From the IMG/VR virus record IMGVR_UViG_3300024346_000031, positions 21,551 to 85,550 of that record: a stretch of DNA of 64,000 nt; one strand, written 5' to 3'. This document shows positions 5,005 through 35,629 of the stretch, piece after piece (the stretch's first letter is position 1; each line of letters begins with the position of its first letter). Origin of the DNA: a virus. Made by a program: the position numbers and the translations under genes. Below the pieces are notes generated by a model. That model did no database searches and was not told the origin of the DNA. It saw nothing but the letters and a program-made list of their open reading frames with translations.

Positions 5005-8000
5005 CTAAGAACTTAATACGTTTAATTTTCTATTGTTTAATCTTGTTTCAATATTTTCTATATAGTTTATTTTATTGTTCACCGTAACAAAGTTTTCTAT
5101 TTCTTGTAAATATGTCCCTCCAGCGTTATCTTTTACTTCAACACTAATGTCATATTTTCCTAAATCACTGAACTTCCATACAAAGAAAGGTACTCCTTTT
5201 ACTTTAGTAATTTCCTTCTTTGTAAACGAGTCTTTAAGCGTCCATATGTATTCTTGTTTTCCATCTAAGTTGTTGACTACAAAGAAAACCGGCGCATGTT
5301 GGGGAACTTTAAATCTTTCATTAAAAAACTTAAGGCTATTTATTTTTAAAGAATTTTCATCTATTGTAGACGGTAAGTATCCTATTTGTTTATCGTTTTC
5401 AAATCTCCAATAATCTTTATCTTGCCAAAAATAAGGATCCTGAACTGCTCCTGTTATAATATCGCTTGTTTTAGCAAATAGAAACAACGTATCTTCATCA
5501 AACATTGGAAAAGTATTTTTAAGATAATCAACCAATCTTTGAGAATATACATTTCTAGGATGAAAGAATGTATATTTACTACTATCTTTTTCTAAATCTG
5601 GACTAATCGGGCTATACCAATTTACATAAGAAAGTATGTGATACATATCTTTACTTAAATAATTAGCTTGGGCATGTATTTTACCTCCTATTATTTCATA
5701 GTTAAATTTACTTATCCCATTATGGATAGATTCAGCATTTAGCAAATCAACTAATTCTATTAATGTTGAAAAATTAGGCAAATAATAAGTAGAATATAAA
5801 GATATTTGTATAGCATCTCCTGGAGTAGGATCTGCTATGTAGAATCCTGCTAAAAAATCTCCTTGATATACTAAATCAGTAAATCTCATGTAGTATAGAT
5901 CTTTTAAAGTTTTTTGCTCAAAATCACTTATCTTGAATGGTATGTTATTTTTACCTAGTCCCCAGTTGTTTTTTGCCTCTAGATTGTTTAAAGGATCGTT
6001 ATATGAAATAAATGAATCAGTGTTTTCATCATAAAATTCTACATCGTACATGTCTTTTCCTGAACCATATCTATGTTGAAAAAATGTTTCAAATTCTAAT
6101 AAGTTTTTATATATGTCAAAATTGTTTAGACTAGTATTTAGTACATTAATTTTTGGAAAGTATAGTGTTGAAGTTCCAAAGTCTTTTACTTGAACGTTAT
6201 CTAAATTATCTAATCTTAAACTAAATTTATCCTCTAGTCTAGAAAAAGCTATTATTTCTGGTTTCTTGGCTTCATCAACTGTTATCTTTTTAGAATAAGT
6301 ACTAGTGTTTCCATTAAATGTATGTATACTGATATCTACATTATATTCACCAACATATGGTAAAAAATGAGGAAGCCTCTTTAGGTCTTTGGCAAGACCT
6401 CTGTATTCAAAGTTATATGGATTAGGAGTAGGTTTTGTTATTTTCCAAGTTACTTCATAAACATTTTTTAAATCTATATTTTCAAAAGTCCAATATAATG
6501 GCGTATTTGAAAGATCTAACCATGTTATTCCATTAAAAGTTTTACATGTAAATTTATCTATTCCTATTTCAAGTATAATAGGCGCACCGACTTTTTTATC
6601 AGGGCCATCGCCTGTGTCCCATGATAACATAGAAGATATATTTGGGTATCTTTGATTTTTAACAGATGTATAATACTCTTTTATATAGTCGCATATTGAA
6701 TCTATATCAGTTGGGCTATATTTTTGAAAAGACGAATATGGATTAGGAGAGTTTTTGTTAATTCTATTAACACCCATATCAATTCCATTCAAATAGCTTT
6801 GGGAATAAAGAGGGTCTAAAGAAACTATAGTAAGCCTATCACTATTACTGGGTGAATTTTCAATACTAACCCTTTCGTTTAAATCATAATCTAATATATC
6901 CGTTCTGTCTGGCCAATACTTTATAGTAAACTTTTGAAAATAGATAAATTCACCAATAATATCTTTTATTTTTACATTTATTGGTATAATTTCATTTTTT
7001 AATTTCTTGTCTAACTGATTTAACTTATAGAATATCTCATCAACCGTAAAGTCAGTTGTTTCTACTACTTTAGGTAAACCATCATCATCGAATTCATCTG
7101 TTGCTTTTGTGAATTCATAAGTGAGAGCTAAGAATTCTGTTTTTACAAATTGCTTTCCTGATTTTACATTTTTATTTAGATTTAATAGATTAAGGTTGTC
7201 TATTTTACCGTCATCTAGTATGTCTGTTAGGTCTACTAAAAATAATTTGTCAAAGTAAGGAGAATCAACATTTACATTTTTCCAATACTCTTTTATATGA
7301 AGAGTGTCTTTGTAACCTAACATATTAATGAAATTAACTAATCCCTTATAGGTTCCTATATATGGATATATTTCACTATGATTTACAAGTAAACTTTTTC
7401 GTGTTGAATTTATTTTTTTCCAATCTGGATATACCTCTTTTATGTCGTATGTTGCTAGTATATTAGCGTCTTGTCTGTTAAATTTAATACCAAAGTTTTC
7501 TAACCATACTCTAAATCTTTCATCTTCGTCTTCCCCTTCTCCGTAAAATAATAGTTTGGCAACTGTTTCACTAGTGCCTGTTATTTCGTCTTCTAGGTAA
7601 ATAGTTAAAGATCTAACATACTCTATTTCTTCGTTTGGGTTAAAACCTACATTCAATTGAAGAGGAACTTTTAAATCTATAGCTGCTCCGGTTCCGTTAG
7701 GTAAAATGTCTTCATAGGAAACTTTTATTGAATCCTTTTTATTAATTACATATTCTCCTATTTTAAATTCTTTTTCAACGTCATATAGGAAAAAAGGAGA
7801 TTCATTGATGCTATCCCATTTAACAACTATAGACTGGCCTCCAGTTAATGTTGGAAATTTATAATCAGATCCTACTTTTTCAAGTATAAAAAAGTTTTCA
7901 TTATCATATAGAGCAATAGATAATTGTTCGAAATACATGTTTGCCTCTAATATACCAGTGTCAGGGTTTTCCTGAAGGTTTATTAATTCGCCATCTCTAT

Positions 8001-26576: not shown

Positions 26577-27677
26577 ATGATTTACCTGATAGACGGAAAC
26601 GCGTACTTAAACGTTGCAATAAATGTAGTAAAGAGAATGCTATACACCGACAAAACATCAGGAAAAGAATATTATATGAGAGACATCTTCAATGAAGATA
26701 GGTATATCTTAAAGGAAACTGCAAGAATAAAATTTAGAGATTTTTCACTAAATTACCTATCTTCATTGATTTCTCCTGTTAGCGACTCAGTAAACGAAGT
26801 TCACATAGTCTTTGATTCTAAAAGTTGGAGAAAAGAATATGTAACATCTAAGCTCAAAACTCTTTCTTTACCTTCAGGTGATTTTAAGTATAAAGACAGG
26901 AAAAAAGACAATATGATATATTTGTTTTTTGAGTATTTTCAAAATGAAATTCAAAGTTATCTTGAAAAAAATTCAGGTATTGTTTTTCATAGAACGCCTG
27001 GTATGGAAGGTGATGATATAATCGCTCAACTTTGTGAAAATACTAATAAGAATATGATTATCTATACAGTAGATAAAGATATGTTTCAATTAGTAGAAGA
27101 TTCTAGCAGATTCATTATTTTAGCCATGCCCAAAATGATGTCAAAGAACAAAAAAATATTCTACACTAAAAAAAGTGACGCTGGAGATTTCTTTAGTTTA
27201 ACTGAGACAAATAGTGTTGAAGGAACTATTTCAAAATTTGAAAAGAGAGGGTATGTTAGAAATGAAATAGGCCCGATTAATGAAATAGTAACTAAGGTTT
27301 TTACTGGAGATAAATCAGATAATATCCCTAGAATACATAAAATGACTCCTTCTAAAGTTAAAAAAGTAGCAGCCTATCTTATAGAAAAATATGACTCTGA
27401 AATATTAGATAAACTAGATAACTATAAAAATGATATTTCATTTATAGAAGAATGCGCTAAAAAAGTAATTGAAGTAGCCAAAATAAAAGACAGCGATGTC
27501 ATTTTATCTTTAAACGAAGCGATATGCCTGAATATTAAATTAATGAGGTTATCCACCAAAATGATACCTTCTCATGTTAAAACAGAGGAGTATGATAAAA
27601 TATACAAAAATAAAGTATATACCAAATTTAACTATAATAAATTAGTAGAAATAAAAAATAATTCAGTACTTATATGA
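26577..27677 (+). CDS. rnh: RNase H / 5'-3' flap exonuclease (FEN family, T4 Rnh-like)
   Basis: 366 residues. FEN metal-binding acids are clear: D6 in MIYLIDGNAY, EGDD in GMEGDDIIAQL (about residue 143), VDKD in YTVDKDMFQL (about 163) and GDKSDN in FTGDKSDNIPRI (about 244), followed by the helix-hairpin-helix-like K-rich segment. In T4 this enzyme removes RNA primers and flaps on the lagging strand with gp32, and the gp32 gene is just upstream here as well. The stop overlaps the GroES start (ATGA), so the two are translationally coupled. Confidence 0.9.
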   Translation: MIYLIDGNAYLNVAINVVKRMLYTDKTSGKEYYMRDIFNEDRYILKETARIKFRDFSLNYLSSLISPVSDSVNEVHIVFDSKSWRKEYVTSKLKTLSLPSGDFKYKDRKKDNMIYLFFEYFQNEIQSYLEKNSGIVFHRTPGMEGDDIIAQLCENTNKNMIIYTVDKDMFQLVEDSSRFIILAMPKMMSKNKKIFYTKKSDAGDFFSLTETNSVEGTISKFEKRGYVRNEIGPINEIVTKVFTGDKSDNIPRIHKMTPSKVKKVAAYLIEKYDSEILDKLDNYKNDISFIEECAKKVIEVAKIKDSDVILSLNEAICLNIKLMRLSTKMIPSHVKTEEYDKIYKNKVYTKFNYNKLVEIKNNSVLI

Positions 27678-27973
27678 AACCGTTATACGAAAGAATTTTA
27701 ATTAAACCAGTAGAAAAAGAAACTCAGACTAAGTCTGGTATTCTATTACCTGGAAAAGCAGTAAAAAGACCTAATATAGGAACAGTTGTTGCTTGCGGAG
27801 AAGGAACTCCTCATAATCCAATGAAAGTAAAAGCAGGTGATATTGTATTATGTAATAGATACGCGGGTATCGATATAAATTACAAAGATACTTCTCACTA
27901 TGTTATTATGTCTAATGAAATTATCGCAGTATTGGACACTGTAGATGAAGTTAAGTTAGACGAATATGAATAG
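27674..27973 (+). CDS. groES: Co-chaperonin GroES
   Basis: 99 residues. GroES hallmarks: KPLYERILIKPVEKETQTKSGILLP at the N-terminus, which contains the mobile loop that docks on GroEL; GTVVACGEGT; VKAGDIVLCNRYAG; and the YVIMSNEIIAVL strand. It caps the GroEL cage. The phage also encodes GroEL at 13053-14660. It overlaps both neighbours (4 nt upstream, 8 nt downstream), so it belongs to a tightly packed operon. Confidence 0.93.
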   Translation: MKPLYERILIKPVEKETQTKSGILLPGKAVKRPNIGTVVACGEGTPHNPMKVKAGDIVLCNRYAGIDINYKDTSHYVIMSNEIIAVLDTVDEVKLDEYE

Positions 27974-28994
27974 GAAGTTTGATTTCAATGACATACTAAT
28001 ATGTCCAGCAATCCAAACATCTATACAATCTAGAGATAATATAGATATTTATTATCCAGATGGTAATCTCCCAATAATAACGGCTCCAATGGATACTGTT
28101 ATATCAAGACAAAACGAACATGCATTTAGCTCTAATAGAATTATAGCGTGTTTACCTAGGGGTGAAAAGACAGGATTTTCAGGAATAGAATCGTATTCAT
28201 TGCACGATATAACTAAAATGTTTAATTCTGGTGAACTTAAGAAACACTCAGGTTACTTAATAGATATAGCCAATGGTCATATCAATGATTTAGAAAGTAT
28301 CACTAGAAGCATTAAAAACAAATATGGTGATGACATATATCTAATGGTAGGTAATGTAGCTCATCCTAAAACATATAAAATATTATCTGAAGCGGGTGCA
28401 GATTCAATTAGAGTAGGGATAGGTAATGGAGCAGGTTGCTTAACAACACAGCAAACAGGAGTAGGTTATCCAATGGCTTCTCTTATTCAAGAATGTTATC
28501 ATGAATCTTGTTCTTTAGATAAACCTGCTATGATAGTGGCAGATGGAGGAATGAAGACGTATTCTGATATAATAAAGGCTCTAGCATTAGGCGCAGATTT
28601 CGTTATGCTGGGATCTATTTTAAATAAAGCGCTAGAAAGTTGTTCACCATGTATGTATGAATCTAAATTTGCAGGAAACTCTACTGGTTTAAATGAATTA
28701 ACTCATACAGAAGCGTTGGAAATGTTTAACAATGGACAACCCATATTTAAAAACTTTAGAGGCATGTCAACTAAAGAAGTTCAAAAGAAATGGGGAAAAC
28801 AAAATATAAAAACCTCAGAAGGTATATCTGAAATTAGACAAGTTGAATATACTCTTTCAGGCTGGACTGACAATTTTAAACACTACTTAAAGTCAGCAAT
28901 GAGCTACACTAATTCTATAAATCTAAATGAATTTATAGGAAAAGTTGTTATTGATATGATAACAAATAACGCTTACGAAAGATTTAAAAAATAA
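27966..28994 (+). CDS. guaC: IMP dehydrogenase / GMP reductase family enzyme, GMP reductase-like
   Basis: 342 residues, the length of GMP reductase rather than IMPDH (about 490 with CBS domains, absent here). The loop GIGNGAGCLTTQQTGVGYP (C158 catalytic, T160 the paired Thr) follows the GMP reductase version, where TGVGYP replaces the IMPDH AGVG-PQ. The nucleotide phosphate site DGGMKTYSDIIKALALGADFVMLGS is intact, and FRGMSTKEVQ is the family flap. GMP reductase turns GMP to IMP, a route from guanine to adenine nucleotides. In an AT-rich phage this may recycle host G into A. IMPDH activity is not excluded. Confidence 0.82.
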   Translation: MNRKFDFNDILICPAIQTSIQSRDNIDIYYPDGNLPIITAPMDTVISRQNEHAFSSNRIIACLPRGEKTGFSGIESYSLHDITKMFNSGELKKHSGYLIDIANGHINDLESITRSIKNKYGDDIYLMVGNVAHPKTYKILSEAGADSIRVGIGNGAGCLTTQQTGVGYPMASLIQECYHESCSLDKPAMIVADGGMKTYSDIIKALALGADFVMLGSILNKALESCSPCMYESKFAGNSTGLNELTHTEALEMFNNGQPIFKNFRGMSTKEVQKKWGKQNIKTSEGISEIRQVEYTLSGWTDNFKHYLKSAMSYTNSINLNEFIGKVVIDMITNNAYERFKK

Positions 28995-29000
28995 CCAAAA

Positions 29001-29579
29001 ATGAAAATGGCAGATATGAATAGCCTACCGCTTCCTTTACATAGAACTCTTATGTTTGCAAAGGACGTTAATTTAGAGTCAATTGAGGCTTTATCTAGAA
29101 ATATACTTAGGATAAATGAAGACGATGATCATCTTGAAAAATTGTACAAAGTCTACGATATAGATTATATCAGAAGACCCATTAAAATAATGATAGATAG
29201 TTATGGAGGATATGTATATCAATGTATGGGATTACTTGGTATAATGGAAAAATCAGTTACTCCTGTGCATACCTATGCAACAGGTGCTGCAATGTCCTGT
29301 GGTTTTATGATACTTATATCTGGACATAAAAGGTTTGCCTATAGACATGCTACTCCTATGTATCATCAAGTATCTACTGGTTTTTGGGGAAAAACACAGG
29401 ATATGGAAGAAAGTTATAAAGAAACTAAAAGACTTCAACAAAAATTTGAAAACATAACATTAGAATCAACAAAAATATCTAAAACTAAGTTAAAAGATAT
29501 TCTTAAAACAAAGCAAGATTGGTACATGGATGCTAAAGAAGCTTTATCACATGGGGTAATAGATAAAATAATAGATTAA
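29001..29579 (+). CDS. clpP: ClpP-like serine protease
   Basis: 192 residues. The ClpP triad is in place: S99 in ATGAAMSCGFMIL, H122 in PMYHQVSTG and D173 in KQDWYMDAKEAL; the IMIDSYGGYVYQCMGL segment is the usual substrate-binding strand region. ClpP forms barrels that need a Clp ATPase partner, probably the host's ClpX/ClpA. A phage copy may degrade host proteins, or act as a head-maturation type protease, but the phage already has a gp21-like enzyme. Two Met codons (positions 1 and 3) are possible starts. It follows the GMP reductase gene by 6 nt. Confidence 0.85.
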   Translation: MKMADMNSLPLPLHRTLMFAKDVNLESIEALSRNILRINEDDDHLEKLYKVYDIDYIRRPIKIMIDSYGGYVYQCMGLLGIMEKSVTPVHTYATGAAMSCGFMILISGHKRFAYRHATPMYHQVSTGFWGKTQDMEESYKETKRLQQKFENITLESTKISKTKLKDILKTKQDWYMDAKEALSHGVIDKIID

Positions 29580-29802: not shown

Positions 29803-29809
29803 TAAAAAC

Positions 29810-29823
29810 TTTAGTATAATATT
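29810..29823 (+). promoter_or_regulatory. TTTAG-TATAAT promoter driving the gene-free region
   Basis: TTTAGTATAATATT, the best form of the non-late motif, yet no coding gene follows for 600 nt. Transcription would begin near 29828. Confidence 0.62.
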
Positions 29824-29827
29824 TTAC

Positions 29828-30318
29828 AAGTAAGAAAAACGTTCTTTAATTTATTGGTGAAAGGTGTCAGATATCGACGGATTGATGACATTGATATGTG
29901 CCTGAATAATAAGTGAAGCGAAGCTTATAAAGGAATGTATTAGATCGATGGATCGCAATTAAAGTCCTATACCAAGGACCTACTCTAATGAGAATATTGA
30001 ACTAAGATAGCTCTTAGAATACATGTGCATAATAACAAGAATCTAAAAGATTCGCAAATTGTTTATAGGTAATACAAAAATCCTATTTAATGACTGAATA
30101 ACCATTACGTTTGCGTGGTAAGGTGTTTCTTAGACCATAGTGGTCCTAACGATGTGATGAACGAGTACAAGTTTAAAATGAGTTAGTTCTTTGACAGAAG
30201 AAATAGAAAGCAACAATAATTTGTAGTAAACGATTAAGTTAGAGGTAATCTTTAATCCTCTCATATCATCTTTCACTTTTTATATTTAAACCCAATCTTT
30301 TTAGATTGGGTTTTTTAG
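29828..30318 (+). ncRNA. Candidate large structured noncoding RNA (about 450-490 nt)
   Basis: No plus-strand reading frame of note fills this stretch, yet it has its own promoter (29810) and a strong terminator (30289). Complementary ends can close it: GTGAAAG (29857-29863) with CTTTCAC (30270-30276) and GATAT (29870-29874) with ATATC (30263-30267). Inside are several local hairpins: GTCCT/AGGAC near 29964, CTAAGA-TAGC-TCTTAG (about 30002-30017), GAATCT-AAA-AGATTC (about 30039-30053), GACCA-TAG-TGGTC (about 30132-30144) and AGAGG/CCTCT (30241-30260). The mixed base use with many GA-rich loops is unlike the neighbouring coding DNA. No rRNA, tRNA, tmRNA or RNase P signature is seen. Phages often carry large ornate RNAs (such as the GOLLD and ROOL classes), but membership is not established. 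Confidence 0.65.
30289..30318 (+). terminator. Rho-independent terminator of the candidate ncRNA
   Basis: AACCCAATCT / AGATTGGGTT stem (10 bp) with a TTTT loop followed by TTTT. Confidence 0.9.
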
Positions 30319-30360
30319 GTATACCTGATTTTTTTAAAATTCCTTTCTCTCTAAACTAAA

Positions 30361-30388
30361 AGAAGAGAGCAATTGCTCTCTTCTTTAT
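30361..30388. terminator. Perfect-palindrome hairpin after the tail sheath gene
   Basis: AGAAGAGAGC-AATT-GCTCTCTTCT, a 10-bp stem, 25 nt beyond the stop of the minus-strand sheath gene. It can terminate the sheath transcript and back up the ncRNA terminator. Confidence 0.75.
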
Positions 30389-30408
30389 ACTTTCGTATGA
30401 ATGTTTAG

Positions 30409-33345
30409 TTAGAAACTTGGAGTAAATCCAGTTGAATCTGAGCTTAATCCTCCACCAACTCTAGTAATAGTAATTCTATTGATGAATTTATGAATTCCTC
30501 TTGGGAAGTCTACACTAATATCAACAATCGCAGTATTAGCTTCAATTACTTCATTAGTATTATTCTCAGTATCAAATTGTACTGTATAGCCTTGAAGACC
30601 TCTAGCATTTACAACTGAGTCCATGTAGTTTTCTAATATTCCTTTAACTCTTAATCTTGTGATTTCATCATTAAAGTCAAATAAGAAATTAACTAATATT
30701 TGTTCAATGTCTCTTTCAATAGTAGATAGGTTATCTCTAATATGAGCATTGTTAAGAGCTGATTTAACTCTTTGGTATGCAGTGTTATTACTAAATACTG
30801 TAATTCCAAATCCTCTTCTTTTAACTATTAAATTATGACCAACTGGCTCTAAGAAATCTCTATCGTCATTTGTTAAATCATATTCTAATCCAACTACTTC
30901 TGGATCAGTGATAATAGCTCTTTTACCAGCAGTAATCAAGAAAGGTGTTCCGTTCTTGAATTTTCTAACATACGCGTTAGATACATAAGCTGCTGGTGGA
31001 ACTGATTTAGTTTTACCGCCTTCTCTAATAAGCATGTTTGGCATTACAAAATATTCGTAAGATGACAATGGCACTCCATTAACATCTTCATCTGCAAATT
31101 TAAAGGTATAGCTTGGATTCAAACTTAAATTACCTCCTTTAGAAATATATTCTGTTGAAACTAATTTATTTACAACGTTAACAAAACTAGGGTCAACTGA
31201 TTTTTCAAATTGTTCAAATGAAGGATCGTTTAATATCGCCATGACCTTTCCATTCATTGCTGCTATTTTTCCAAGATGATACTTAGAAGATTGAGATAGA
31301 TCTCCTTCATAAGAATCTACTATATATCTATAATCTATAGTTTCTCTGTCTGAAAGAGCAGAAGGTATTGCTGTATATTTAAACAGATACTCTAATATCT
31401 CTTTTTGTCTATCTGATGTAGAGTTAGGTAACAATCCAGTTCTTATTTTGAATCCTTTCATACATTGTCCCTTTAAAGAACCTACAAAGTTTGCAATTCC
31501 TTTATATACGGATATTGTATTTCCAGTAGTGTCTAATCCATCTACTTCGTTTATGCTAGGTACCATAGTAGTAATAACATATTCTAACCTATAAGGGCTT
31601 AAATCTTCGCTTGATGTAATTGAAATTATCTTAAGCAGCCTAGGTCTTGAATCTCCTACTAATCTAGCTTTAATATAGTGATTAACTTTTAAAAATTCAT
31701 CAATCTCTGCTTTTTCAGCAGCATTAGCTGTATTTATACCTAATACTAATTTATTAGGTTGTTGTATTTGATAATCAGTAAAATAATCAGTGTCAGTTAA
31801 ATCAAATACCTTTTTAAAATCTGAACCTGAATCTAATACATATTTTATGTAGTCGTCTACGTTATTATACGTATTTACTGCGATTCTATTTAATAAACTG
31901 GAATCCTGATATGTGTAAATCTTAATGTAAGAATAATCATTTCCTCCAAGGTCTTGTATAAAACCATCTTCTATTTTAGAATAATAAGTGTTTACGCCAT
32001 CAATAGATTCGTCTCCTGTTCTTAAGAAGCCATCTGTATATGCTTTATAAACTTTACTATCTTCAAAAGCTATTAAATAATCATCAGCAGCTGTCCATTT
32101 AATTAAACTACTTGTTGTTGCTCCAGTAAAATCATTCTCTGGCAAAGACAAATCTATTTTGTAAATAAGTTCCTTGTCTCCAGGTTTACTATAACTCAAT
32201 ATGTCTATTAAAGGTGTACTATCTGCTACAGTTCCAGATGGTTCAAAACCACCGTTGTCTATTGAATATACATCGTCTGAATCTAATTCATCATATCCAT
32301 GTCCTATTGTATCAACTCTATGTGTTTCCATGTTGATATCGCTAAAATTGTCGTCTTCTAAGTCTATCAAATCTAATTTATCTGCGTCTAATGCACATAA
32401 TAAACCGGTAGTGGCAAATAATCTATTTACTAATGAATCAACTGATGCAATAGTACCACTTTGATCTTTAAATTCTGGTATCAAACATCCTGTTACTCTA
32501 GCGATTGCTTGTACTTCTTGTAAAGCTAAGAATGAAGGTACTTGACTGTCTATCAATCCGCTTTCATCAAAGAATTGACTAAATAGAGCATCTTTTGATA
32601 ATCTAATGTTATTAGACCAATCTCCATCTACTATGATTACTTCTACGAAATAATCTGAAATAAAATCGTCTGCGCTAACAAAATTAGGAAAGTCAATTGA
32701 TTCTCCAAAACTAGCATACCATTCTTTAGCTGTTACATCAAATCCAGTAACGGTTGCTTTTCTAACCCACACCGTCATATTAGTGTTTCCTGTATTAGCA
32801 AAACTTAATATTTTATTTGATGCGATAGATGCGTTACCAAATGAACTAGGATTTAATATATAATCATCTCCTAATGCTAAGTTTTTTGATTTATTTAAGC
32901 TTTCATCATCCGCGAACCACAGTTTTCTCTTGTTAAAGAATTCAACTAGTGGATATTGATATGGTGCAGAGTCTTCATTATTAGAAGAAGATTCAGTATT
33001 ATATGTTGTAAAGTAGGCTTTATCTAAGTTAGCAACAACGTCAGTGTCTGTATCTAAAGGCAGTACATTCATTGCAAAAACGGGACCTTCCCGTAATGCT
33101 ACTTCTATTGTTCTATGAAAGTAACTTCCTTGTTTTTCTAATTGAGTATCTCTGTCTCCATATACTGCGTTTAATGTACGTACATCGTTTATTAATACCA
33201 CTGTATTAAAAGGACCTTTTCTACTAGATCCTATGATTAATCTTCCTGTCGTAAGCGGTAGAGCTAGACCTTGACTTTGGTCTATTTCAACTGTATACAC
33301 ACCAGATGATTTAAAGTTGTTTAAGTTTAATACTTTTTCGGCCAT
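30409..33345 (-). CDS. 18: Tail sheath protein, gp18-like
   Basis: 978 residues, much longer than T4 gp18 (659). The N-terminus (SSGVYTVEIDQSQ, then TGRLIIGSSRKGPFNTVVLINDVRTLNAVYGDRD) and the C-terminal region (FLFDFNDEITRLRVKGILENYMDSVVNARGLQGY) are typical of contractile sheath proteins. The conserved AVIDP-type block appears as GKRAIITDPEVVGLEYDL. The extra length lies in the middle (about residues 130-640), where sheath proteins carry variable surface domains. It polymerises around the tube and contracts on infection. The tube gene is about 14 kb away. A late motif ends 21 nt before the start, and the gene is a single late unit. Confidence 0.9.
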   Translation of the reverse strand: MAEKVLNLNNFKSSGVYTVEIDQSQGLALPLTTGRLIIGSSRKGPFNTVVLINDVRTLNAVYGDRDTQLEKQGSYFHRTIEVALREGPVFAMNVLPLDTDTDVVANLDKAYFTTYNTESSSNNEDSAPYQYPLVEFFNKRKLWFADDESLNKSKNLALGDDYILNPSSFGNASIASNKILSFANTGNTNMTVWVRKATVTGFDVTAKEWYASFGESIDFPNFVSADDFISDYFVEVIIVDGDWSNNIRLSKDALFSQFFDESGLIDSQVPSFLALQEVQAIARVTGCLIPEFKDQSGTIASVDSLVNRLFATTGLLCALDADKLDLIDLEDDNFSDINMETHRVDTIGHGYDELDSDDVYSIDNGGFEPSGTVADSTPLIDILSYSKPGDKELIYKIDLSLPENDFTGATTSSLIKWTAADDYLIAFEDSKVYKAYTDGFLRTGDESIDGVNTYYSKIEDGFIQDLGGNDYSYIKIYTYQDSSLLNRIAVNTYNNVDDYIKYVLDSGSDFKKVFDLTDTDYFTDYQIQQPNKLVLGINTANAAEKAEIDEFLKVNHYIKARLVGDSRPRLLKIISITSSEDLSPYRLEYVITTMVPSINEVDGLDTTGNTISVYKGIANFVGSLKGQCMKGFKIRTGLLPNSTSDRQKEILEYLFKYTAIPSALSDRETIDYRYIVDSYEGDLSQSSKYHLGKIAAMNGKVMAILNDPSFEQFEKSVDPSFVNVVNKLVSTEYISKGGNLSLNPSYTFKFADEDVNGVPLSSYEYFVMPNMLIREGGKTKSVPPAAYVSNAYVRKFKNGTPFLITAGKRAIITDPEVVGLEYDLTNDDRDFLEPVGHNLIVKRRGFGITVFSNNTAYQRVKSALNNAHIRDNLSTIERDIEQILVNFLFDFNDEITRLRVKGILENYMDSVVNARGLQGYTVQFDTENNTNEVIEANTAIVDISVDFPRGIHKFINRITITRVGGGLSSDSTGFTPSF

Positions 33346-34213: not shown

Positions 34214-35629
34214 ATGATAATAGGAAGCGAATATAATGAAAAAATACAATCTTTACTTATCTCATATATAAATGAGGCAGGTAAATGTTCTTTCATGAAG
34301 AAAAAGTTACATAGATCAGAACTTTTTAACTGGACTATTTCTAAAAATCCTACCGTAGATAAAAATTGGGATGGAAGATTTATTAAAAGAACACCTTCAT
34401 CTGGAAAATGGTTAACTAAAGAACGAGTATTTGAATTAATTCAAACTAAATTTTCAAAAGAAGATTTAAATACTATATACGAGTCTGATTTCACTGCAAG
34501 TAAAGCATACTTAGATATTGAAATAGAATTAATAAGTGATGATTTTCCAGAAGCAGATAAAGCAGCAATGCCAGTTAATCTTATAACTTTTTGTAATAGT
34601 AATAACGATTGTTACGTGTTAAGTACTATGAAAGATCAAAATACAGGAGATCCTTTATCAATAGACGAACAAAAAACTATCAATGAAGACGTTCATACAT
34701 ATTTTAAAAATATAAAAAATACAAAGGAAGGTGATAGAAAAATACTGGATCAAACCTTTAATATAAATTATATACAATTTAGTACTGAGAAAGAAATGAT
34801 GGAATGTTTTTTTCATAAAATACTTCCAAAAATACCTCTTATAACTGGTTGGAATGTCATAAATTTTGACTGGATATATTTAATGAATAGATGTAAAAAT
34901 ATAGGAGTTGATGCATTTTTAAACTTACCGAGTGAAAGAATAGTTTCAAGACATAATAAAGTTCCTATACATACTGCTGTTCTTGATTATATGGAAATGG
35001 TAATGCAAATGAAACCTTATAAAGTAATGGAAAATTACAAATTAGATTATTTTGCTAACCTTTCATTAGGTGTAACTAAACTTAAAAGCAATCATAAGTC
35101 AATGCGAGAAGCTCAAAAACATGTAGCTGAATTTACTATGTATAACATAATAGACGTATTAATAGTTAAAATGCTAGATGATAAACATGAATTACTAGAT
35201 GTTGCTCTTAGTTTATCAAAAGTGGCAAGGGTTGAAATAAACAAAGTTTTTAACCCTGTTCATATAACGGAAACTTTAATATGCAGAGAATTTTTATCAA
35301 ATGGAATGAGAATGGCAAAGGATGGAAAACCTGAGAATGCAAATAAGTCTGGTACTTACGCAGGCGCCTTTGTTATGCCTCCTATACCTGGACATTATGA
35401 TTATGTAGCTTGTTACGATTTTGCCTCAATGTATCCTAATGTTCAAATGCAATTTAATATATCACCGGATTCCTTTTTAGGAAAAGGAAGTATTAAAAAA
35501 ACAGGAACAGAAATACCTACAAAAAATGACACATTGTTTTCAGGAGAAAAGGATTCTGTAACCCGTGTCATATTAAATAGGTTATATAATAAAAGAGTAG
35601 AGACAAAGAAAAAAATGAAAACTCTGTGA
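34214..35629 (+). CDS. 43: DNA polymerase gp43, N-terminal part only (exonuclease and motif A)
   Basis: 471 residues against about 900 for T4 gp43. The 3'-5' exonuclease is complete: D101/E103 in AYLDIEIE, D219 in WNVINFDW, and YNIID (D314). Polymerase motif A is present (YDFASMYPN, D402, where T4 has D408), then FNISPDSF matching T4 VNISPET. The frame stops after VETKKKMKTL, which aligns with T4 KDWKKKMFAEE, in the fingers region before motif B. Motifs B (NSLYG) and C (DTDS) were not found in any reading frame of the window. A split gp43 (43A/43B) is known from some Aeromonas T4-like phages; here the second part must lie outside the window or be lost. Confidence 0.9.
   Translation: MIIGSEYNEKIQSLLISYINEAGKCSFMKKKLHRSELFNWTISKNPTVDKNWDGRFIKRTPSSGKWLTKERVFELIQTKFSKEDLNTIYESDFTASKAYLDIEIELISDDFPEADKAAMPVNLITFCNSNNDCYVLSTMKDQNTGDPLSIDEQKTINEDVHTYFKNIKNTKEGDRKILDQTFNINYIQFSTEKEMMECFFHKILPKIPLITGWNVINFDWIYLMNRCKNIGVDAFLNLPSERIVSRHNKVPIHTAVLDYMEMVMQMKPYKVMENYKLDYFANLSLGVTKLKSNHKSMREAQKHVAEFTMYNIIDVLIVKMLDDKHELLDVALSLSKVARVEINKVFNPVHITETLICREFLSNGMRMAKDGKPENANKSGTYAGAFVMPPIPGHYDYVACYDFASMYPNVQMQFNISPDSFLGKGSIKKTGTEIPTKNDTLFSGEKDSVTRVILNRLYNKRVETKKKMKTL

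Follow-up and report, generated by a model that had tools for sequence, protein, structure and literature searches.

On the plus strand of a marine phage window (by which is meant the whole stretch of 64,000 nt analysed), positions 29857-30276 specify a structured RNA of about 420 nt, without genes, whose two halves are divergent manA (RF01745) domains in tandem. Sequence comparison and covariation establish the exchange of the predicted P4 helices between the two modules, and this exchange is the key novelty. The same two lines of evidence underlie the assignment of the two halves to manA, of the RNA to the plus strand and of one predicted pseudoknot to each module. Judged in this way, the window RNA represents a known family in a new architecture.

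The manA motif was put forward as a possible riboswitch from marine sequences and cyanophages, where it lay chiefly in what could be 5' UTRs (Weinberg et al. 2010, PMC2864571); its Rfam alignment was corrected later (PMC7779021). Since 2010 it has remained an orphan riboswitch candidate. That many marine phages carry a double manA, covalent and strand-swapped, would be an architectural clue to its role and would make action in trans, rather than in cis, the expectation. No mention of a tandem manA or of exchanged helices was found in the literature searched, from which subscription journals were mostly absent, so that an earlier report is possible.

Both halves of the RNA are manA domains

The first-pass annotation could not place the RNA in a known class, an assessment overturned by Rfam covariance-model scans of its halves. 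A scan of the whole window returned no family at its gathering score. A permissive scan matched 30091-30261 to manA (34.5 bits, E 3.7e-7), and a scan limited to the 5' half matched 29899-30086 (33.2 bits, E 2.6e-7). As both matches are significant and each covers the same RF01745 positions, 23-182, the whole core, it was concluded that the RNA comprises two manA modules in tandem. Both modules miss the Rfam gathering cut-off of 55.2, as does the best long-form orthologue (module A of L004, 47.3 bits). Which half scores higher differs among orthologues; double manA matches occur in L004, L063 and L155, with two separate matches each in the latter two.

The features of the locus, all on the plus strand, are as follows.

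29810-29823, plus: putative promoter-like TTTAGTATAATATT, a consensus match only
29841-29849, plus: boxA-like GTTCTTTAA in the leader (conserved GTTCTTTRA)
29857-29863, plus: outer closing helix, 5' strand GTGAAAG, pairing with 30270-30276
29864-29891, plus: 5' hairpin, loop GACG; its two stems hold 5 compensated pairs
29893-29898, plus: inner closing helix, 5' strand GATATG, pairing with 30262-30267; 3 of 6 pairs compensatory
29899-30086, plus: manA module A, with core TGCCTGAATAA, P2, P3, hairpins and T-like hairpin
29918-29922, plus: module A P2-loop pseudoknot strand GCGAA, pairing with 30051-30055 (TTCGC); 100% paired, 2 compensated
30028-30033, plus: P4 5' strand of module A, CATAAT, pairing with 30233-30238 of module B
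30058-30063, plus: P4 3' strand of module A, ATTGTT, pairing with 30212-30217 of module B
30065-30086, plus: module A T-like hairpin, ATAGG ... CCTAT; 100% paired, 3 compensated pairs
30087-30090, plus: linker TTAA between modules; length of 4 nt shared by all orthologues and the second tandem group
30091-30261, plus: manA module B, with core TGACTGAATAA-P2-TAAGGTG, P3, hairpins and T-like hairpin (30241-30261)
30108-30112, plus: module B P2-loop pseudoknot strand CGTTT, pairing with 30228-30232 (AAACG); 100% paired where letters exist, 1 compensated
30212-30217, plus: P4 5' strand of module B, AACAAT, pairing with 30058-30063
30233-30238, plus: P4 3' strand of module B, ATTAAG, pairing with 30028-30033
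30262-30276, plus: closing-helix 3' strands, inner 30262-30267 and outer 30270-30276
30288-30316, plus: intrinsic terminator AAACCCAATCT-TTTT-AGATTGGGTTT plus T (hairpin and T run)

The likeness to manA extends to the core (TGACYGAATAA-P2-TAAGGTG), the P3 multibranch with its hairpins, P4, the T-like GGTA..AATCC hairpin, the closing helix and the 5' hairpin; P2, the P3 multibranch, the T-like hairpin and the closing helix are all present with covariation. Unlike manA as described, the window RNA has two modules per molecule, exchanged P4 strands, an extra outer helix, a boxA-like leader, a terminator and convergent gene on its 3' side, and scores under the cut-off. Thus it departs from the family in score, in within-module P4 and in 5' UTR position (the window RNA does not occupy one, and location varies among orthologues), and agrees with it in the other manA features tested.

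Covariation supports the fold on the plus strand

The prediction of a discrete large structured RNA, with a closing helix and nested hairpins, was borne out by folding and covariation. It is covariation that is decisive, since folding energy by itself is moderately unusual, with z = -3.1 against shuffles for the window RNA and only -1.3 for the orthologue L063. Seven distinct sequences were aligned with MAFFT, fitted to no structure, and the nested structure was taken from manA anatomy and RNAalifold. The resulting consensus of 98 pairs, from which the upper P4-arm helices were left out as too variable, has 96.9% of its cells paired and compensatory changes in 55 pairs; when partners are slid by 1 to 3 columns pairing falls to at most 47%. 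Not one of 500 shuffles reaches the observed percentage paired, number of compensated pairs or covariation score, although with sequences so few and related (two of the seven are nearly identical) shuffles overstate significance. The slid controls are free of that weakness, as is a blind scan of every 6-column helix, in which 13 helices combine at least 3 compensated pairs with a pairing of 90% or more, all of them inside the structure, and the top of the scan is a crossed P4 helix. The check on homologues called for by the first-pass annotation therefore left the large structured RNA standing.

The complementarity of the ends is real in the case of GTGAAAG (29857-29863) with CTTTCAC (30270-30276); this outer helix is invariant in the seven sequences and so gives no covariation evidence by itself. 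A second end helix, described as GATAT/ATATC, also exists, formed by GATATG at 29893-29898 with CATATC at 30262-30267 rather than by the GATAT at 29870. Each module has in addition one predicted pseudoknot, from the P2 loop to the strand immediately 5' of the P4 3' strand, seen in all sequences with letters there and carrying three compensated pairs altogether. Three G-U pairs kept in all 7 sequences (columns 13-41, 64-73 and 312-337) fit only the plus strand, which argues for an RNA of that strand.

The locus is gene-free, as claimed: there is no plus-strand ORF of at least 30 aa within 29857-30276 and no credible gene in 29803-30408. The two minus-strand ORFs within the RNA (35 and 48 aa) are not conserved, and examination of the homologues for a conserved coding frame found none.

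P4 strands are exchanged between modules

In single-module manA, P4 pairs inside the module in 85 of 85 distinct cyanophage copies (6 or 7 of 7 positions). In the tandem orthologues, by contrast, the crossed P4 helices have 96.4% of cells paired and 9 of 12 pairs compensated, with a covariation of 0.817 versus 0.353 in shuffles, whereas within-module P4 is 59.5% paired, equal to shuffles. In the window itself the helix 30028-30033/30233-30238 forms 5 of its 6 pairs, with one A-A. RNAalifold had proposed one of the two crossed helices before the targeted look. A second, much diverged tandem group, considered below, has other sequences in these helices and pairs in 345 of 345 crossed cells, with 29 cells changed on both sides, against only 60-69% for within-module P4.

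Each half scores as manA alone, which would suit two independent side-by-side domains, each with its own P4; with within-module pairing at the level of shuffles and crossed P4 covarying in two diverged groups, such an arrangement is highly improbable. The tandem RNA can instead be read as a covalent strand-swapped double manA or, equivalently, as one manA, circularly permuted, within the P4 arm of a second. It would be a further natural example of RNA domain duplication with strand exchange.

Orthologues and a second tandem group

Orthologues of the tandem RNA, 7 distinct sequences in all, were found in 12 marine viral contigs, including the window's own record. The upstream ClpP gene, used as bait, led to L002, L003, L004 and L007, in which the RNA occupies the same position; L005, L006 and L011-L013 also encode ClpP relatives, with no manA match in their contigs. 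Pattern scans added L063/L155, L242/L248, L244 and L249/L275, of which L275 was the one contig gained with the pattern of CTTTCAC plus T-like hairpin.

A scan for the module junction (T-like hairpin, linker, core) returned 63 loci, some by chance, and revealed the second tandem manA group, with 34 loci and 26 distinct sequences, 3 truncated. Of 12 records tested from this group, 10 have a module B above the Rfam cut-off (61-73 bits), and module A is the second match in several. Members include L460, L461, L468, L470, L479, L483, L491, L492, L502 and L506.

A blastn search of 50,697 named phages with the RNAs of the window, L249, L242, L460 and L506 found no orthologue, and named-phage relatives by ssDNA-binding or sheath protein (Microcystis phage Mel-JY01 and Flavobacterium phages immuto and MaF61) have no manA match that convinces, the best reaching 13.4 bits. 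Bacterial genomes, scanned by pattern, gave chance matches for the most part; the real manA recognised there was of cyanophage type, with copies in a Prochlorococcus assembly (L350) and a single marine MAG (L316).

The family extends beyond what the Rfam manA model captures. Single-module RNAs that resemble manA but are divergent, and that have different closing helices, score under its cut-off in non-cyanophage contigs (L250, L255, L259, L264, L265, L251, L292 and L027); the MAFFT alignment of diverged short forms is poor in the middle. A single manA of 88 bits in a 180-kb phage contig (L286:8411-8620, plus strand) has an additional T-like hairpin (GGAAGG..CCTTCC) and a perfect boxA-like GTTCTTTAATA ahead of it, and is maybe an intermediate form.

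Leader, probable promoter and terminator

For stable RNAs that are not translated, rRNA among them, boxA serves to recruit Nus factors. In each of the 6 lineages a boxA-like GTTCTTTRA lies about 6-9 nt 5' of the outer helix, against a chance expectation of 0-0.3% per 68 nt; given the role of boxA in stable RNAs, an untranslated RNA is favoured. The site, which resembles the boxA consensus GYTCTTTAANA (PMC5725501), would be working as boxA here. It is also found in some short manA of other phages (L262, L279, L281 and L265), 23-44 nt before the core. The second tandem group has a GTTTTTTGA-like site before the RNA, a possible boxA variant.

The window RNA probably has its own promoter and terminator, although the signals are not entirely as first described. 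The 14-mer TTTAGTATAATATT, taken to be the strongest copy of a promoter motif, is the sole exact copy in the window, while allowing up to 3 mismatches gives 84 matches, about as many as the 76.9 expected by chance; the motif is also upstream of the orthologues L003, L004 and L155. The terminator hairpin is present and followed by T, with a stem of 11 bp (30288-30313; z = -4.6) and not of 10 bp. A simple terminator scan of the window did not list this hairpin, probably because the T run sits inside the stem. A comparable hairpin and T run is found 3' of the RNA in L003 and L004 and is absent in L242. Self-contained and terminator-delimited, the RNA is a good fit for cryo-EM, probing and pull-down.

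Genomic neighbourhood

In the window the terminator begins within 12 nt of the RNA 3' end, and the next gene, encoding a tail-sheath protein (phrog_34521; 30409-33345), is on the opposite strand and convergent, as is the next gene in L002/L155. Downstream neighbours are not conserved among orthologues, being variously a terminator and convergent sheath gene, tRNA genes or an exonuclease gene. In L004/L007 a same-strand exonuclease gene lies 97 nt downstream; tRNA genes follow directly in L003, after 68 nt in L249/L275 and after about 200 nt in L242/L244/L248, and none is present in the 64,000-nt window. The second tandem group is located 196-799 nt upstream of an ssDNA-binding (gp32-like) gene wherever the available flank reaches that far, with intervening ORFs in L479, L491 and L506. 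For cyanophage manA the next gene is on the same strand in 67 of 83 cases.

Function

Such varied downstream neighbours do not fit a cis-regulator of one gene and favour a stable trans RNA. The best explanation as a whole, somewhat more likely than not, is a tandem strand-swapped manA that would be a stable trans-acting RNA and no switch of a downstream gene. Two manA domains, head to tail with a 4-nt linker and one closing helix around both, would be transcribed from the putative promoter with boxA-type antitermination and would fold into a compact pseudo-dimer. During infection this stable structural RNA or RNP might act in trans, with two equivalent manA binding surfaces on offer. The architecture argues that manA here may be a structural RNA in its own right, contrary to its filing as a gene switch. 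It is also conceivable, as a tentative extension, that the working unit of manA is a dimer in which single modules swap P4 in trans, the tandem phage form being a covalent version of that dimer that acts as a stand-alone RNA scaffold, and the riboswitch annotation of the family therefore wrong.

A tandem cis-regulator, with two manA aptamers in series controlling the next gene in the manner of the glycine riboswitch, is the reading that follows Rfam and the original report, where manA lies mostly in potential 5' UTRs (PMC2864571). The same-strand genes after cyanophage manA, the ssDNA-binding gene beyond the second group and the exonuclease gene of L004/L007 would all suit it, and the first two of these make a cis role possible elsewhere in the family. 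For the RNA described here it seems doubtful in view of the convergent genes in the window and L002/L155, the closely placed window terminator, the variation among orthologous neighbours and the ORFs that separate RNA and gp32-like gene in three members of the second group. A role in a stable-RNA (tRNA) operon, as its leader or as a processive antitermination element, would explain the boxA-like site in all lineages and the tRNA genes that follow in L003, L249/L275 and L242/L244/L248, and manA beside tRNAs was noted in a plasmid paper (PMC10832533). This is unlikely, as the window RNA runs into a terminator and convergent gene with no tRNA in the window, and boxA alone would suffice, with no need for a conserved 420-nt double fold.

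There remains identity with tmRNA or another known ornate RNA (GOLLD, ROOL, RNase P or a group I intron), whose likelihood is close to nil. By eye the GACGG of the 5' hairpin looks like a tmRNA D-loop region, but the GACG loop belongs to the 5' hairpin of other manA members, there is no Rfam match to any of these RNAs and no encoded CCA end, and ARAGORN predicts no tmRNA; tmRNA identity from this loop was ruled out on the ARAGORN and Rfam results.

If the RNA acts in trans, it is perhaps a scaffold or RNP like the large phage RNAs near tRNA islands, GOLLD and ROOL; the search turned up no protein partner of the tandem RNA. GOLLD and ROOL likewise stand alone as large RNAs; they occur in phages and prophages, frequently close to tRNA islands, have no known function, and both form RNA-only oligomers (PMC12286853). 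The window RNA differs from them in being smaller (about 420 nt), in having no sequence or Rfam match to either and in being, as predicted, a covalent double unit. The tandem glycine riboswitch, too, carries a pair of homologous RNA domains one after the other on a single transcript. The window RNA shares that arrangement, but it has no known ligand and no downstream gene in the window, and its strands are exchanged. To our knowledge there is no ligand or regulation known for the manA family.

Other features of the contigs

Upstream of the RNA, window positions 26577-29579 hold a cluster of genes for a 5'-3' exonuclease, a GroES-like Cpn10, an IMPDH/GMP reductase and ClpP. Between the RNA and the sheath gene lies a perfect palindrome, AAGAAGAGAGCAATTGCTCTCTTCTT (30360-30385), which, followed by T on the minus strand, is likely to be the terminator of the sheath gene. 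A family B DNA polymerase frame at 34214-35629 ends early, covering 17-140 of 453 PF00136 positions, and the frames after it do not continue the polymerase; the gene may be split.

In L242 a bacteriorhodopsin-like gene (PF01036; 380-1006, plus strand), unusual in a viral contig, is directly upstream of the tandem RNA (1091-1511), and 7-8 tRNA genes lie downstream. In a 223-kb viral contig, L447, ARAGORN predicts a tmRNA gene (6942-7356, minus strand) with the tag GNVNRVPAGVNMEEHFGASLAA, which adjoins tRNA-Ala.
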